Source: a virus. From it: a stretch of DNA of 25,992 bases. The stretch lies in IMG/VR virus record IMGVR_UViG_3300032322_000109, positions 1 through 25,992 of that record. One strand, 5' to 3'. Made by a program: the position numbers and the translations under genes. Numbering within the stretch: the first letter of the stretch is position 1; each line of letters opens with the position of its first letter. Below, piece after piece: positions 6,121 through 16,565 of this stretch. The notes under the pieces were generated by a model that searched no databases, was not told the origin of the DNA, and saw only the letters and a list, made by a program, of their open reading frames with translations.

Positions 6121-7503
6121 ATGGCACTTGTTCTAAAAGACAGAGTTCAAGAAACGAGTACCACGACAGGTACAGGGACATTAACGCTTGCTGGTGCTGT
6201 TACGCAGTTTCAGACATTCTCAGCCGCAGTTGGCAACGGAAACACTACTTATTACACTATTTATAACGCTGGTGGATCACAATGGGAAGTAGGCCTTGGT
6301 ACGGTAGGCGCAGGAACACTTAGCCGTGATACTGTACTTTCATCTAGTAACGCTAATGCTTTAGTTAGTTTTACAGGCACTTTGTATGTGTTTGGTGATT
6401 ACCCTGCTGACAAGGCTGTATTTAAAGATGCTAGTGGCGTAATCAATAACACTACATTTAACGCTACAACAAGCGTTATTACCCCTATTGTACAGGCTAC
6501 AAATTCAGGTGGATTAGCACTTAAAAACTCCGCAGGAACTACTCAAATCAGTATGGGTGGTGGCGGTGGTGACAATGTGTCAATTAATGTAGCTACAAAT
6601 ATTAATGGTGCAAATGCACAAATAGACATCAGCCCTACTGGTACAGGTCATGTCCACATAAAGCCTACAGGCACAGGATCGCTTGAGATTGCTCCTACAA
6701 ATGTAGGAACAATAAACAATATGACTATCGGTGCAACAACGGCTGTTGCTGGTAGTTTTACTAATTTAAGCGTAACTGGCACGACTAGTTTTGATGGCGC
6801 AGAAGGTACAGCAGGTCAAGTATTAACTTCTGCTGGTACAGGCAATACCCCTACATGGGCTACACCAACCACAGGTACAGTAACTAGCGTTGCTGCAAGT
6901 GCTGGAACAGGCATTAGCGTATCAGGTAGCCCTATTACTGGTAGCGGTACGATTACCATTACCAATACTGCGCCCGATCAAACGGTTGTATTGACCGCAG
7001 GTACAGGGATTAGCACTAGCGGTACATATCCTAGCTTTACCATTACAAACTCAGGCGTAACTGTTTACCCTGGTGCTGGTATTGCTAATTCTACAGGTAG
7101 CGCATGGGGAACAAGCTACACCACTAGCGGTAGCGGCACAGTTGTCGCTTTGGCTACTGCCCCTGCACTTAATACACCAGTAGTCACAAATTACACAGAA
7201 ACGCTTTATGCCCCTTCTGCTGGCTCTAGCTTTACTGTTGATTTGGCTAACGGCACAGTACAAAAGTTAAGCCTTAACGCTAACGGCACAATTACATTGC
7301 CAAGCTCTGTAGCTGGTAAATCTTTTGTAATCATTGTTACTTACTCCGGTGCATTTACTTTGACTTGGGCTGGTGGTTCTACGATTAAATGGCCTGGTGG
7401 CACAGCGCCTACAGCATCATCCGCAAACGGTAAGTTTGACATCTTTACTTTCTTTTGCGATGGAACTAACACATATGGCAATTCGTTCGGCCTTAATTAC
7501 TAA
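6121..7503 (+). CDS. Tail fibre / receptor-binding structural protein 1
   Basis: The 460-residue protein starts with a conserved virion-anchor type domain (MALVLKDRVQETSTTTGTGT, then FQTFSAAVGNGN, WEVGLGTVGAG, LSRDTVLSSSNAN, PADKAVF; residues 1-102) that I recall from many aquatic phages. The middle (about 120-340) is a Thr/Gly/Ser-rich run of short beta repeats such as PTGTGHVHIKPTGTGSLEI and AGTGISVSGSPITGSGTITI, as in trimeric fibres. The C-terminus (about 345-460) is a distinct globular-looking domain, ending in an FCDGTNTYGN motif. There is no signal peptide or membrane segment. It is likely host-facing. Its TAA shares a base with the ATG of the HNH gene. Confidence 0.7.
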   Translation: MALVLKDRVQETSTTTGTGTLTLAGAVTQFQTFSAAVGNGNTTYYTIYNAGGSQWEVGLGTVGAGTLSRDTVLSSSNANALVSFTGTLYVFGDYPADKAVFKDASGVINNTTFNATTSVITPIVQATNSGGLALKNSAGTTQISMGGGGGDNVSINVATNINGANAQIDISPTGTGHVHIKPTGTGSLEIAPTNVGTINNMTIGATTAVAGSFTNLSVTGTTSFDGAEGTAGQVLTSAGTGNTPTWATPTTGTVTSVAASAGTGISVSGSPITGSGTITITNTAPDQTVVLTAGTGISTSGTYPSFTITNSGVTVYPGAGIANSTGSAWGTSYTTSGSGTVVALATAPALNTPVVTNYTETLYAPSAGSSFTVDLANGTVQKLSLNANGTITLPSSVAGKSFVIIVTYSGAFTLTWAGGSTIKWPGGTAPTASSANGKFDIFTFFCDGTNTYGNSFGLNY

Positions 7504-8132
7504 TGGGTAAATTTGTAGATTTAACTTCTATTCGTGTTGGAAGGCTTACGATATTGCATCGAGGTAAAAACATAGCTAAACAACCATCATGGGTTTGCTT
7601 ATGTGATTGCGGAAATGAAACTCAAATTGTTGCTAGTAGTTTAAAGTCTGCAAGAACTAGGTCATGTGGCTGTTTAAGAACAGAAGTAACAAAAAAAACA
7701 ATGACAACTCATGGAATGACAAATAGCTCTGAATACAGTATTTGGTCTGCTATGAAAAAGCGTTGTCTTGATGCAAATAACCAAGACTATAAAAACTATG
7801 GTGGTCGTGGAATTACTGTATGCGATAGATGGGTTGATTCATTTGTCAATTTTTATGCTGATTTAGGTGCAAAACCTAATGCCTATTCTTTAGATAGAAT
7901 TGATGTTAACGGCAACTATGAGCCGTCTAATTGCAAATGGTCAAGCCTAGAAGAACAAGCAAACAATAAAACCAATAGCGTCAAATACACTTTAAATGGG
8001 GAAACTTTGACAATTACACAATGGTCTAAAAAGTCAGGTTTAAAAGTTGCATCTTTAAGAAAAAGACTAACTCAAGGCATGGAATTATCTCGTGCTTTGG
8101 TTAATGTTGACTATAGGAGCTGTAATGTTTAG
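7503..8132 (+). CDS. Free-standing HNH homing-type endonuclease
   Basis: The 209-residue protein matches a common phage HNH endonuclease pattern. A zinc ribbon-like region has C32, C34 or C36, C55 and C57 (VCLCDCG and RSCGCLR). The middle has HGMTNSSEYSIW, KRCLDANNQDYKNYGGRGIT and VCDRW. The core is SLDRIDVNGNYEPSNCKW followed by EQANN (residues 119-145). A C-terminal helix-turn-helix-like ITQWSKKSGLKVASLRKRL (about 161-179) may read DNA. Such genes spread by cutting homologous loci that lack them. It sits between two fibre genes, starting in the stop codon of one and overlapping the other by 8 bases. It has no Shine-Dalgarno site of its own, so it depends on coupling. Confidence 0.82.
   Translation: MGKFVDLTSIRVGRLTILHRGKNIAKQPSWVCLCDCGNETQIVASSLKSARTRSCGCLRTEVTKKTMTTHGMTNSSEYSIWSAMKKRCLDANNQDYKNYGGRGITVCDRWVDSFVNFYADLGAKPNAYSLDRIDVNGNYEPSNCKWSSLEEQANNKTNSVKYTLNGETLTITQWSKKSGLKVASLRKRLTQGMELSRALVNVDYRSCNV
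8115..8119 (+). promoter_or_regulatory. Ribosome binding site inside the endonuclease gene
   Basis: AGGAG here lies 5 bases before the ATG at 8125. It fixes the start of the second fibre gene at 8125 rather than the in-frame codon at 8092, and it lies within the last codons of the HNH gene. Confidence 0.7.
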
Positions 8133-10077: not shown

Positions 10078-10593
10078 ATGTTAGTTCGAATTCGTGATAC
10101 TGGTGCTGTAATGTATGAATCAGAGTTTAGAAAAATAAACTCTAATACATCTTTTCCTCATCCTATTTCTGCTGAAACGCTAAATGAGTTTGGTGCGGAT
10201 GTGGTTTTAGATGGCCCACAAGCTACAGGCGGTACTGTTTACCAACATTCCCAACAAGATGGCGTTGAGGAAGTAGACGGCAAGTGGTACACCAAACACA
10301 TTCTTGGCCCGATCTTTACTGACACCCCTGCTACAGAAGATAGCCCAGCTAAGACCGCAGCCGAGAACGAAGCTGCTTACAAAGCCGTTAAAGATGCCGA
10401 GCAAGCAAAGTCAGTTCGTGAATCAAGAGATCAAAAATTAAAAGATAGCGACTGGACACAGGTAGCCGATGCCCCTGTTAATAAAGAGGATTGGGCAGCT
10501 TATCGTCAAGCCTTACGCAATTTGCCAGCACAAGAGGGCTTCCCTTGGACAGTTACTTATCCTACAGAGCCAACAGAGGTCGGGAGTAGCTAA
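10078..10593 (+). CDS. Tail fibre-associated assembly chaperone-like protein
   Basis: The 171-residue protein ends in a domain that I recognise from phage tail assembly chaperone (Phage_tail_APC-type) proteins: SRDQKLKDSDWTQVADAP, then WAAYRQALRNLPAQ and GFPWTVTYP (about residues 114-165). The N-terminal half (VRIRDTGAVMYESEFRK, then WYTKHILGPIF) looks like small fibre-assembly proteins. An acidic/basic helix (residues 82-115) links them. AAAGGA just upstream is a good ribosome binding site. It lies directly downstream of the large fibre gene, as fibre chaperones often do. Its TAA shares a base with the next ATG. A structural role instead of a chaperone role cannot be excluded. Confidence 0.6.
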   Translation: MLVRIRDTGAVMYESEFRKINSNTSFPHPISAETLNEFGADVVLDGPQATGGTVYQHSQQDGVEEVDGKWYTKHILGPIFTDTPATEDSPAKTAAENEAAYKAVKDAEQAKSVRESRDQKLKDSDWTQVADAPVNKEDWAAYRQALRNLPAQEGFPWTVTYPTEPTEVGSS

Positions 10594-11264
10594 TGCTAGG
10601 TTTTACACCGTTATCGACTAATCCCATATCGGATATACAACTTCCTGCCATTACAGGAACGATTAATGTAACCGATAGTAACGATACTGCTAACCTTACA
10701 GGTGATGTATCTGCCGCTATTGTTACGGGGACTATTTCGGCAACGGATAGCAACGATACAGCCAATATTACAGGTGCTGTTTTAATACCAATTACAGGCA
10801 CTATTTCTGCTACAGACGGTAATGACACAGCAAGCATTGAAGGTTTTGTTGGCATACCTGTAACAAGCGATACCCATGACGGCTTTACGAAGGAAGAAAT
10901 CCGTAGAGCTAGAAATTTAGACAGAAAAATAAAAGCTAAACAATTAGCACTATTACAGGCTCAAAAAGAGTCGAAAACACGCAGAAAACAACAAATTAAA
11001 GATTTGGTTGATCCACCAAAAGTTGTTGCAAAAGCCAAACAAAATAAATTACAATCAATTCAAGAGGTTAAAGCTGATATACCGTCTGCTGATACACAAG
11101 AATTAGAACGGTCTATCGCTTACCTAGAGAACCAAAAAAACAATCTGTTAAAGACGGTAGCGTATAGGCAAGAGGTAGCACGGATTCAAACCCAACTCGC
11201 CATCCTAGAAGCACAGCGTTTAGCAGAGCTAGATGACGAGGAAAGCTTATTACTACTACTTTAG
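10593..11264 (+). CDS. Repeat and coiled-coil virion protein
   Basis: The 223-residue protein has two halves. Residues 20-89 hold three tandem copies of a beta repeat (ITGTINVTDSNDTANLTG and two variants). Residues 95-217 are a Lys/Gln/Glu-rich helical region with heptad-like spacing, which suggests a coiled coil. The C-terminus is acidic then ends in five leucines. The opening MLGFTPLSTNPISD is a pattern I recall at the start of several phage structural proteins. I do not know the function; position next to fibre genes suggests a fibre or fibre-linker part. The glycosyltransferase frame begins inside its last 30 bases, in the -1 frame. Confidence 0.5.
   Translation: MLGFTPLSTNPISDIQLPAITGTINVTDSNDTANLTGDVSAAIVTGTISATDSNDTANITGAVLIPITGTISATDGNDTASIEGFVGIPVTSDTHDGFTKEEIRRARNLDRKIKAKQLALLQAQKESKTRRKQQIKDLVDPPKVVAKAKQNKLQSIQEVKADIPSADTQELERSIAYLENQKNNLLKTVAYRQEVARIQTQLAILEAQRLAELDDEESLLLLL
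10650..10859 (+). repeat. Three tandem imperfect coding repeats of 72, 69 and 69 bases
   Basis: Units start at 10650, 10722 and 10791 and each encodes ITGTI(N/S)-TD(S/G)NDTA-type sequence of 23-24 residues. The DNA is more diverged than the protein, mostly at third positions, which suggests selection on the repeated fold rather than recent duplication. Confidence 0.75.
11238..11251 (+). promoter_or_regulatory. Putative ribosome binding site and ATT start of the glycosyltransferase
   Basis: GAGGA at 11238-11242 stands 6 bases before ATT at 11249, in the frame of the glycosyltransferase. The frame is closed by TGA at 11234-11236. No ATG, GTG or TTG occurs in frame before the ATG at 11429, although the homologous N-terminal domain clearly lies between them. 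AUU starts are rare but documented (infC of E. coli). A -1 frameshift from the preceding gene or a sequence error are the alternatives. Confidence 0.4.
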
Positions 11265-12154
11265 ACCCCCACGCCCAGTTCAGACTGGCTTACGATCATT
11301 TACACGCAGGTCGTTACGAACAAGGTTTTAAGCTTTTTGAGTACCGTTGGCATCCTGAAATCATTGCCGAAGAGTCGGTTAAATATGCCCCAGCCCTAGA
11401 CATTCCTGTATGGCGTGGTGAACCTTTAATGGGTAAGTCAATTACAGTGCAGATGGAGCAAGGGTTTGGTGACATAATTATGTTTGCCCGTTTCTTGCCA
11501 GCACTAAAGGCGTTAGGGGCTTCTAGGGTTGTTGTTTTACAAGAATCTTCCCTGCACTACTTATTGGGTCAAATTACTGCTGTAAATGTGTTTTCTAACA
11601 GCTTAGAAGATGGAATAGCCAAAGAATCTGATTATTGGATTGGCTCAATGTCTTTGCCGTATTACATATCTTTGTCGCATCCCCTTGTAAAGTCCATGTT
11701 TCCTGTAAATCGCAAGAAAATTGTGGGTTCTGAGGGCTATTTACACGCCATTCCAAGTAATATTCCCCCAAAAATAGGGGTTAATTGGGAGGCATCAAAA
11801 CAAATTCTGTATTACATCAAGTCTATTGACTATCGCCACATGGAAGAATTGGTCGGTTCGGACTGCTATAGCCTAAATCCTAAATCTGACGGCTTATTTA
11901 ACCCACTTCCTAACGATGGTTGGAAGAAAGATTGGGTAAAAACCGCCCAACACATTAAAGCGTGTAGAGGAGTTGTGACAGTAGACACAGCAACTGCCCA
12001 TTTAGCGGGTGCTTTGGGGGTTAGAACCATCGTTTTGCTGCCAAAAGAAGAGTTTGTATGCTGGCGATGGAAAAACGCCCGTTGGTATGACTCTGTAGTC
12101 TGCCTAAGACCCAATGAATACGACCAAATTCCTGAATTAATAAGGAGAATGTGA
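11249..12154 (+). CDS. GT9/heptosyltransferase-like glycosyltransferase with TPR-like N-terminus
   Basis: The frame is about 301 residues if it starts at ATT 11249. Residues 1-60 (HAQFRLAYDHLHAGRYEQGF, then LFEYRWHPEI and VWRGEPLMGK) look like the last TPR unit and linker seen before GT9-type domains. The catalytic part has EQGFGDIIMFARFLPAL, KIGVNWEAS, TVDTATAHLAGALGVRTIVL and a W-R-W plus RWYDSV end, all typical of this family. Such enzymes transfer a sugar from a nucleotide-sugar donor. In a phage this may modify a virion protein or the host surface sugar; the target is unknown. The ATG at 11429 falls inside a conserved block, so it is not the true start. The TGA overlaps the next ATG. Confidence 0.7.
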   Translation: MTTTLDPHAQFRLAYDHLHAGRYEQGFKLFEYRWHPEIIAEESVKYAPALDIPVWRGEPLMGKSITVQMEQGFGDIIMFARFLPALKALGASRVVVLQESSLHYLLGQITAVNVFSNSLEDGIAKESDYWIGSMSLPYYISLSHPLVKSMFPVNRKKIVGSEGYLHAIPSNIPPKIGVNWEASKQILYYIKSIDYRHMEELVGSDCYSLNPKSDGLFNPLPNDGWKKDWVKTAQHIKACRGVVTVDTATAHLAGALGVRTIVLLPKEEFVCWRWKNARWYDSVVCLRPNEYDQIPELIRRM

Positions 12155-12528
12155 TGATTTGCCCTAAATGTGGCTACACAGAAAGCAATCATGTTGAAGC
12201 CAAAACAGACAAAGAAAAGTATTTAGAGTTCTGGGGGTTTACCCTAGGTACTCCAGAGGCAGAACAAGCTTGGGAAGAGAAAGAAAAGATGACTAGGCGT
12301 GATGCCCCAATGGTAATGTCTGACATTGAAGGCTATGTTTCTCAAGTTGATGGCACTTGGATTAAAAGCCGTAGCCACCACAGAAGTCACCTAAAACAGC
12401 ACCGCATGATTGAGTTAGGCAATGATGTTCCTACGCAACACAAACCTGCTGAAATCGACAAAAAGACCCAAGAAGCCCGTAAACGCACTATTGCTGAACT
12501 GGCTTATTCCAAATTACGCTATAACTAG
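12154..12528 (+). CDS. Small conserved head-module protein with zinc-knuckle-like N-terminus
   Basis: The 124-residue protein begins MICPKCGYTESNHVEAK; CPKC with the nearby H is a possible half zinc site. The centre has a pattern that I recall as conserved among podovirus genomes next to scaffold genes: MVMSDIEGYVSQVDGTWI, then KSRSHHRSHLKQHRMIELGND (split here for length). Its function is unknown. AGGAG at 12143-12147 is 6 bases before ATG 12154 but only 3 before GTG 12151, so I use the ATG. It is placed just upstream of the scaffold gene (9-base gap), consistent with a head assembly role. Confidence 0.6.
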   Translation: MICPKCGYTESNHVEAKTDKEKYLEFWGFTLGTPEAEQAWEEKEKMTRRDAPMVMSDIEGYVSQVDGTWIKSRSHHRSHLKQHRMIELGNDVPTQHKPAEIDKKTQEARKRTIAELAYSKLRYN

Positions 12529-15040: not shown

Positions 15041-15658
15041 ATGGCAATAGATAGTGATGTTCAAGACGCAGATTCCCGTTTAGCGGTCAAGTTTTATAAA
15101 AAAGCAGTTAAGCTAGATCACGAATCAAACGAGGCTGGCAGACCAATTTTTAAGGATTGTGACTTTGTTAGGATTATGATTCCTGGCGATAATCTGACCG
15201 AAATTGACACATACGCCAATGAAAACCACAAACAGCGCTTTCCAAAACAATGGTTGCAATATCAAACTACCCAAGAATCATCTAATCAAATAGTCGGAAC
15301 GCCCGTAAGCGAATGGACTTTAATTAGCCAATCCCAAGCGGAAGAGCTAAAAGGCATTAAATTCCATACTGTTGAGCAGATTGCCAACGCTTCAGACCAG
15401 CAATTACAGCGGATCGGCATGATTGCAGGGATGTCACCAACTGCCTTTAGAGACAAAGCACGGGTTTTCTTGAATTTGGCTACCGAAACGGCTGAAGCCA
15501 CCAAAAGAGAAGAAGAAATTGCCCAATTAAAAGAAGAAAATGCTAAAATCAAGGCAGAAACAGATGCAAAGATAGCTGAGATGCAACAGCAAATGGCTAC
15601 ACTCATTGCGGCTGTTGGTAAACCGAAAGGTCGTAAACCCAAAGTCCAAGAGGAATAA
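15041..15658 (+). CDS. Neck/head-associated protein with coiled-coil tail
   Basis: The 205-residue protein has a globular N-terminal part (VKFYKKAVKLDHESNEAGRP, then VRIMIPGDNLTEID and RFPKQWLQYQ) and a helical part with TVEQIANASDQQLQRIGMIAG that looks helix-hairpin-helix-like (about residues 110-132). A coiled coil follows (about 155-190) with a basic end GKPKGRKPK. I recall similar proteins between coat and neck genes in podoviruses but know no proven function. It begins the post-terminator block, with AGGAG upstream of ATG 15041. No promoter was evident in the 36 bases between terminator and gene. Confidence 0.55.
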   Translation: MAIDSDVQDADSRLAVKFYKKAVKLDHESNEAGRPIFKDCDFVRIMIPGDNLTEIDTYANENHKQRFPKQWLQYQTTQESSNQIVGTPVSEWTLISQSQAEELKGIKFHTVEQIANASDQQLQRIGMIAGMSPTAFRDKARVFLNLATETAEATKREEEIAQLKEENAKIKAETDAKIAEMQQQMATLIAAVGKPKGRKPKVQEE

Positions 15659-15659
15659 T

Positions 15660-16565
15660 ATGTCATCTACGATGCTTCAACTCGTGAATCAAGTCCAATC
15701 GGAATTGAACTTAGCCGTTTCTGTAAGCGTTGCTGGTAACCCCAATCAAGATGTTCAACAGATATTGTCGTTAATGAACGCTGCTGGATACGAGCTTACA
15801 AAAGAATACAATTGGCAAGCATTAGAGTTGGAGTATCGTTTTTACACCAATTATTTGCAATTAATAGGTTCTACTACAGGCTCAAACAGCCCTATTTTGA
15901 CTGTTGTTGGTGATGCCACAAGCCTAAATAGCAATTATTCCATTACAGGCACAGGAATTAACCAAGATACCTATGTTTCTAGCGTAAATGGTCAAGTTAT
16001 AACAATGAGCCAACACGCAAGTGGAACTTATGCTGGTCAAACCATTACTTTTAGCCAAACAAAGTACGATTTACCGCCTGATTTTGAGACTATTACCGAT
16101 AATACGCATTGGGATAAAACAAAACATTGGCAGATGCTAGGCCCTGAAGATGCTCAACAATGGCAATGGCTAAAATCTGGCTATATTTCTACAGGCCCTC
16201 GGATTAGATGGCGTATTTTAGGCAGTCAGTTCCAAATTTGGCCACCATATAACACCCAAGAATATTTAGGTTTTGAATATCGATCAAAAGGCTGGGCAAG
16301 AAGCTCTACAGGAGCAGTTAAAAACAGCTTTACAGCCGATAACGACACGACTGTCTTTGATGACCGTGTCATGGTTTTATTTACAAAACTTAAGTATTTC
16401 CAAATTAAATCGTTTGATACTACTGCACTGCAACAAGACTATATGCGGTACTTAAACATCGCTAAAGCCAATGACAAAGGATCGGCAACCCTCAGTTTTG
16501 CACCGTATCCGAGCAAGGTTCTTATTGGTTACGCCAATATTCCTGATACTGGTTATGGAACATAA
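15660..16565 (+). CDS. Head-completion/tail adaptor protein, P22 gp4-like
   Basis: The product is 301 residues from ATG 15660, which has AGAGGA at 15649-15654; the in-frame codon at 15606 lies inside the preceding gene. The N-terminus (LVNQVQSELNLAVSVSVAGN, then LSLMNAAGYELTKEYNWQAL) resembles helical neck adaptors such as P22 gp4. The C-terminal half has YDLPPDFETITDNTHWDK, then GPRIRWRILGSQFQIWPP and DDRVMVLFTKLKYFQIK. Residues about 62-134 form a Thr/Ser-rich beta insertion. The adaptor would sit below the portal and start tail assembly. Assignment rests on position and pattern; sequence identity was not tested. Confidence 0.65.
   Translation: MSSTMLQLVNQVQSELNLAVSVSVAGNPNQDVQQILSLMNAAGYELTKEYNWQALELEYRFYTNYLQLIGSTTGSNSPILTVVGDATSLNSNYSITGTGINQDTYVSSVNGQVITMSQHASGTYAGQTITFSQTKYDLPPDFETITDNTHWDKTKHWQMLGPEDAQQWQWLKSGYISTGPRIRWRILGSQFQIWPPYNTQEYLGFEYRSKGWARSSTGAVKNSFTADNDTTVFDDRVMVLFTKLKYFQIKSFDTTALQQDYMRYLNIAKANDKGSATLSFAPYPSKVLIGYANIPDTGYGT

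Follow-up and report, generated by a model that had tools for sequence, protein, structure and literature searches.

Initiation at an internal AUU is found in gene 26 of bacteriophage T4. Several bacterial genes also begin with this codon. The infC gene of Escherichia coli, which encodes initiation factor 3 (IF3), has a conserved AUU start (PMC5472188), and in the same species the AUU start of pcnB limits yield (Binns & Masters 2002, as cited in PMC13009471). In Staphylococcus, cvfC1 combines a conserved AUU start with an extended Shine-Dalgarno (SD) sequence (PMC13009471). The pncA gene (BBE22) of Borrelia burgdorferi has AUU as its true start and was misannotated in databases (PMC13398362). 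A survey of start-codon switches found that AUU is almost never reached (PMC5622118). With regard to the sequence context of starts, an E. coli reporter showed more re-initiation when GAGG stood shortly before the overlapping start of the downstream gene (PMC2268962), and an A directly behind the start codon (position +4) has been suggested, as one of several explanations, to aid initiation through base pairing with U33 of the initiator tRNA (PMC9841429).

A literature search, with subscription journals mostly outside its coverage, brought up no report of a phage gene family in which an AUU start is conserved. Here, we describe a phage glycosyltransferase (GT) family that has kept AUU in more than 100 distinct sequences.

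Results

Gene layout at the junction

The window, i.e. the whole stretch of DNA that was analysed, is the IMG/VR virus record IMGVR_UViG_3300032322_000109 with a length of 25,992 bases. Judging from its genes for a terminase large subunit, portal, tail-fibre and head proteins, it apparently stems from a tailed phage. A tRNA search of the window found none. The gene that precedes the GT sits between the tail genes and the GT gene, whose start lies inside its last 16 nt (Table 1). It directly follows the tail-fibre and tail-chaperone genes. PHROG and Pfam searches with the preceding protein gave no PHROG match and no confident Pfam match. Its N-terminal half (window 10593-10870) contains repeated units of the type ITGTISATDSNDTANITG, for which there was no family match.

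The initial annotation had described a GT frame that is open from 11237 and holds no ATG, GTG or TTG before 11429, a GAGGA 6 nt upstream of an ATT at 11249, and a 16-nt overlap with the preceding gene, relative to which the GT is read in the -1 frame. These coordinates were confirmed: GAGGA occupies 11238-11242, and the frame runs from 11237 to the TGA at 12152-12154, with none of the three standard start codons between 11237 and 11429. An AUU start, a -1 frameshift fusing both proteins and an assembly error had been offered as explanations. The findings described below strongly support the first and contradict the other two.

Table 1. Features at the junction of the preceding gene and the glycosyltransferase gene (window coordinates).
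Feature	Position	Strand	Details
Preceding gene	10593-11264	+	223 aa; stop TAG 11262-11264; C-terminal tail ..LDDEESLLLLL-stop
TGA closing the GT frame upstream	11234-11236	+	limits how far upstream the GT can start
SD core GAGG	11238-11241	+	7 nt before ATT
ATT (AUU), proposed GT start codon	11249-11251	+	next base A (+4) also invariant
Overlap of preceding gene and GT	11249-11264	+	16 nt; upstream frame fixes T, the third base of the start
Glycosyltransferase gene	11249-12154	+	301 aa; predicted TPR-like helical hairpin and GT9-like (heptosyltransferase-type) GT-B fold
Region coding for the TPR-like helix pair	11267-11350	+	residues 7-34; conserved; upstream of the first in-frame ATG
First in-frame ATG	11429-11431	+	residue 61 (ATT being residue 1); variable among relatives (L/I/M); rejected as start codon

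Sampling of relatives

A scan of IMG/VR with the window GT returned 401 relatives, of which the best 80 were used. Further IMG/VR scans were run with the upstream gene and with GT proteins ~61% and ~50% identical to that of the window. All scans together gave 278 located GT loci, 216 of them distinct, with loci found by several queries collapsed by sequence. All relatives are metagenomic, and the AUU counts refer to located loci, so that for IMG/VR they are to be read as 'at least'. Loci were classed as window-type or sister-type by protein similarity, independently of the start codon. The window-type sequences with ATT span about 60-100% protein identity to the window.

In a phage collection, a DNA search with the region gave no match. 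At the protein level, the upstream gene likewise had no match among phages, and the GT gave only five distant records of 23-27% identity. A scan of genome contigs returned only bacterial TPR-GT proteins that are ~25-39% identical, and thus no host could be named. The phages carrying the AUU-start GT form a large uncultivated group, probably from freshwater.

ATT and GAGG are conserved in the window-type subfamily

An in-frame ATT without a standard start codon is present in 106 of 107 distinct 65-nt window-type junctions from IMG/VR, the exception being locus L165, which has ATG. GAGG followed by seven bases and ATT (GAGG-N7-ATT) occurs in 103 of these 106 junctions; the perfect GAGG-N7 is absent from L044, L113 and L185. 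An independent assembly from another metagenome (L001) encodes a GT protein 99.7% identical to that of the window and has an identical junction. In all 127 junctions examined for this distance, the upstream stop codon ends 13-19 nt after ATT, and in most relatives the upstream TGA that closes the GT frame is part of GATGAG, 9-12 nt before ATT. The arrangement of an in-frame ATT in place of a standard start codon is thus confirmed as real and not an artefact.

When the junctions were anchored on the DDE codons of the upstream gene instead, ATT stood at one constant position in 81 of the 83 distinct tails. In the two remaining tails (L032, L175), GATGAAGAGG replaces GATGAGG, which places GAGG 3 nt later, and ATT is 3 nt later too. 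The codon therefore tracks the SD element, as is expected of a start codon.

We mapped the junction bases onto a GT protein tree of 104 rows from which the start region had been left out. Across these rows, the ATTA at +1 to +4 never changes; the rows were anchored on ATT, which makes +1 to +3 partly circular, whereas +4 and the DDE-anchored count are unbiased. In the upstream gene, +1 and +4 fall on third codon positions. As a control, the upstream-gene third positions -6, -3, +7, +10 and +13 changed 25, 27, 8, 29 and 28 times on the same tree. ATT versus ATG requires two changes, and ATT forms one clade. It is therefore one long-kept evolutionary state rather than many inventions, and the sequence counts are not independent events. 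The conservation of the third base, T, is in part imposed by the upstream frame.

Sister-type loci and loci that lost the overlap

In the sister subfamily, which shares this upstream tail, the GT mostly begins with an ATG that lies 12 nt downstream of the ATT site and overlaps the upstream stop codon as ATGA. At the site of ATT, its 38 tails carry ACT (16), TTT (8), ATT (6), CGT (3) and other triplets, and +4 is A in 13 of them. GAGG is present in 11 of the 38 sister-type upstream tails as against 81 of the 83 window-type ones. Fisher's test, with relatedness ignored, gave 7e-21 for ATT at the site and 1e-16 for A at +4 between window-type and sister-type.

L165 is nested in the ATT clade of the GT tree. 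Here, the upstream gene stops 14 nt before the GT frame opens, i.e. the overlap is lost, and an ATG stands in the exact column of ATT in a gap-free alignment (MSSNLNPHQQYKLAY versus ITTTLDPHAQFRLAY), although this is one sequence only. The N-terminal residues read MSSNLNPH in L165 versus ITTTLDPH.

Five sister-type GT loci (L163, L169, L173, L174, L266) have no overlap with the upstream gene. They show GGAGAAGG ~20 nt before the ATG, with an out-of-frame ATTACTTGCC in between; the spacing of GGAGAAGG to the ATG looks too long for that SD.

At four loci (L140, L149, L153, L172), a relative of the upstream gene is present but no GT can be recognised after it. In L153, GAGG-N7-ATT is retained and leads into a short open frame, which would fit a recent deletion of the GT; in L140, L149 and L172 the motif was lost or never present. 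On the 41003-bp contig of L062 (IMGVR_UViG_3300028393_000135), two differing GAGG-N7-ATTA junctions lie 36 kb apart on the minus strand, at 2682-2701 and 38899-38918. The seven other tested contigs have one each. The double junction represents either two GT copies or a chimeric assembly.

The segment before the first ATG belongs to the GT

From about codon +5, the GT frame combines amino-acid conservation with synonymous variation, a pattern of purifying selection. Few parts of the protein are as well conserved as the segment AYDHLHAGRYEQGFKLFEYRWHP, which is encoded by the codons ahead of the first ATG. AlphaFold2 predicts the GT with a mean pLDDT of 90.3 and places helices at residues 7-19 and 23-34 (pLDDT ~93), leaving only six residues of the overlap region without structure. 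Distant bacterial homologues are longer, start at ATG and contain this segment as their last TPR. The distant marine relatives L082 and L084-L100 have a TPR extension that starts at ATG; their only use here was as evidence that the TPR-like part is a portion of the GT.

In its catalytic part, the GT resembles GT9 (heptosyltransferase-type) enzymes, with a predicted GT-B fold and a putative activity. The Pfam family PF01075 (Glyco_transf_9) scores 22.1 bits against a cut-off of 22 and matches 27 of 28 aligned members at E values up to 0.1. A solved structure was sought by sequence and none was found. The best fold matches in the PDB, which include 3tov, 1psw, 2h1h and TibC, are to GT9, WaaC, WaaF-type, heptosyltransferase II and TibC enzymes, with a TM-score of only ~0.5 and 10-15% identity to the GT.

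Alternative explanations

Might a different non-AUG codon close by, at positions -2 to +12 of the GT frame, be the real start? Near-cognate codons do occur there in some members, for instance ATT at -1 in 36 of 127 junctions and AAG at -2 in 17. However, only position 0 is near-cognate in all 127, compared with at most 45 of 127 for any other position; position 0 is the anchor of this count, and the independent DDE anchor agrees with it. It is also the only position that aligns with the ATG of L165. We give a start at another such codon a slim chance.

Slimmer still is the chance of a programmed -1 frameshift in the overlap, by which the upstream gene and the GT would be fused and the SD-like GAGG would act as a stimulator, as in dnaX. 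The -1 frame of the GT, a stretch of ~28 nt in which both frames are open together, and the upstream location of GAGG would all suit such an event. Yet an X XXY YYZ heptamer is missing from the overlap of all 127 junctions, and the zero-frame codons xxA TTA cannot re-pair at -1. Nor does the region fold better than its shuffles (window 11205-11300, z = +0.48; the fold test was done on the window only). Relatives moreover use a separate ATG, at the ATT residue in L165 and 12 nt further on in the sister type, and frameshifting would need neither an invariant ATT nor the coupled movement of GAGG and ATT. Transcriptional slippage was also considered and rejected, as the overlap has no long homopolymer.

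If the GT started at the internal ATG 11429, or at another downstream codon, the segment before it would be untranslated. This ATG is the first standard start codon of the frame and the one that gene finders report, but its residue varies between L, I and M among relatives, and most relatives have no NTG in their first 29 codons. The segment that would be skipped is well conserved with synonymous variation, is confidently predicted as a helix pair and matches the last repeat of the longer bacterial TPR-GT proteins. The initial annotation had taken this TPR-like segment for the normal N-terminus of the GT, which our data bear out; relatives starting at the residue of ATG 11429 were looked for, and the opposite was found. 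The probability that we leave to a downstream start is minimal.

An indel is possible on a single metagenomic contig, but the same junction is shared by over 100 distinct contigs of many different metagenomes, in which an assembly indel could not recur, and purifying selection on the GT speaks against a decayed gene (a pseudogene was likewise rejected), so that the probability of an error or of decay is practically nil.

Other genes of the window

The gene after the GT (12151-12528) is listed from GTG 12151, and ATG 12154 overlaps the GT stop codon by 1 nt. ATG 12154 is the more likely start, because the GT-less L153 begins its homologous gene with ATGATTTGTCC. The mechanical ORF at 15606-16565 begins with TTG 15606 inside the preceding gene; ATG 15660, which has GAGG 6 nt upstream, is more likely to be its start. 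An HNH endonuclease gene (7503-8132), possibly a homing endonuclease, is inserted in the structural gene block.

Discussion

From the conserved arrangement of the junction, we conclude that the GT is very probably translated from AUU at 11249-11251, with the start set by the GAGG 7 nt upstream. The first residue would presumably be formyl-methionine. Ribosomes that end translation of the preceding gene at 11264 would do so within 16 nt of the AUU, and initiation at the GT could be coupled to the translation of this gene. We consider such coupling probable because GAGG and AUU both fall within the final codons of that gene, and because GAGG near an overlapping start raised re-initiation in the E. 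coli reporter (PMC2268962). That reporter did not use a natural AUU start, and for the phage we only infer coupling.

The overlap also offers a reason for the choice of codon. In the upstream frame, the third base of the start serves as the middle base of codon 7, and it is T in all 83 window-type, all 38 sister-type and all 4 GT-less tails. The reason is that codon 7 invariably specifies one of the hydrophobic residues in the DDEExLLxLL tail. Were the start NTG at the same spacing, the upstream frame would read TGN, i.e. Cys, Trp or a stop in the preceding protein. If the third base has to be T, no codon other than AUU comes within one mismatch of AUG. As far as the aligned sequences tell, AUU has thus probably been kept because the upstream tail forces a T at the third position of the start. 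The relatives point to two routes by which this would be left behind: an ATGA start past the tail, as in the sister class, or an AUG after loss of the overlap, as in L165. A regulatory purpose, i.e. a low yield that is sensitive to IF3, would be compatible with the same data and inseparable from the constraint by sequence alone.

On balance, we lean towards a general form of this model, in which the upstream frame bars every NTG at the position proper for the SD, AUU persists in the clade along with GAGG-N7 and an A at +4, and a return to AUG requires loss of the overlap or a shift of the start. If this is true, the weak start would also fix a low ratio of the GT to the preceding protein of the structural region.

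Gene finders that are restricted to ATG, GTG and TTG cut ~55-60 residues from the GT or drop it altogether, and viral glycosyltransferase catalogues are therefore wrong for this phage group. The natural series of AUU with overlap, AUG without overlap and ATGA overlap is suited to the study of overlap-driven start-codon choice.

Comparison with known systems

In terms of its fold, the phage GT is akin to GT9 and TibC-like enzymes, from which it is distant in structural and sequence similarity, as given above. As regards its start, the AUU of infC serves the autoregulation of IF3, whereas the start of the phage GT lies inside another gene and autoregulation is not expected. The Borrelia pncA gene resembles the phage GT in that the annotated protein was truncated and lacked a needed N-terminal part. 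In contrast to the GT, it is a metabolic gene, chromosomally unrelated, whose longer N-terminus is backed by genetics, biochemistry and a crystal structure.

The closest parallel in conservation is with cvfC1, where AUU and its SD are also conserved across related genomes. There, the gene opens its operon behind a very strong extended SD, and Ribo-Ret was used to map it (PMC13009471). The SD of the phage GT consists of the four bases GAGG at a fixed spacing, and the start codon of the GT lies within the upstream gene. The AUU codons of pcnB and T4 gene 26 are not known to be fixed in a large clade through overlap with a preceding gene. AUU starts are thus already known from infC, pcnB, Borrelia pncA and cvfC1, and the GT described here adds a new phage case to them.
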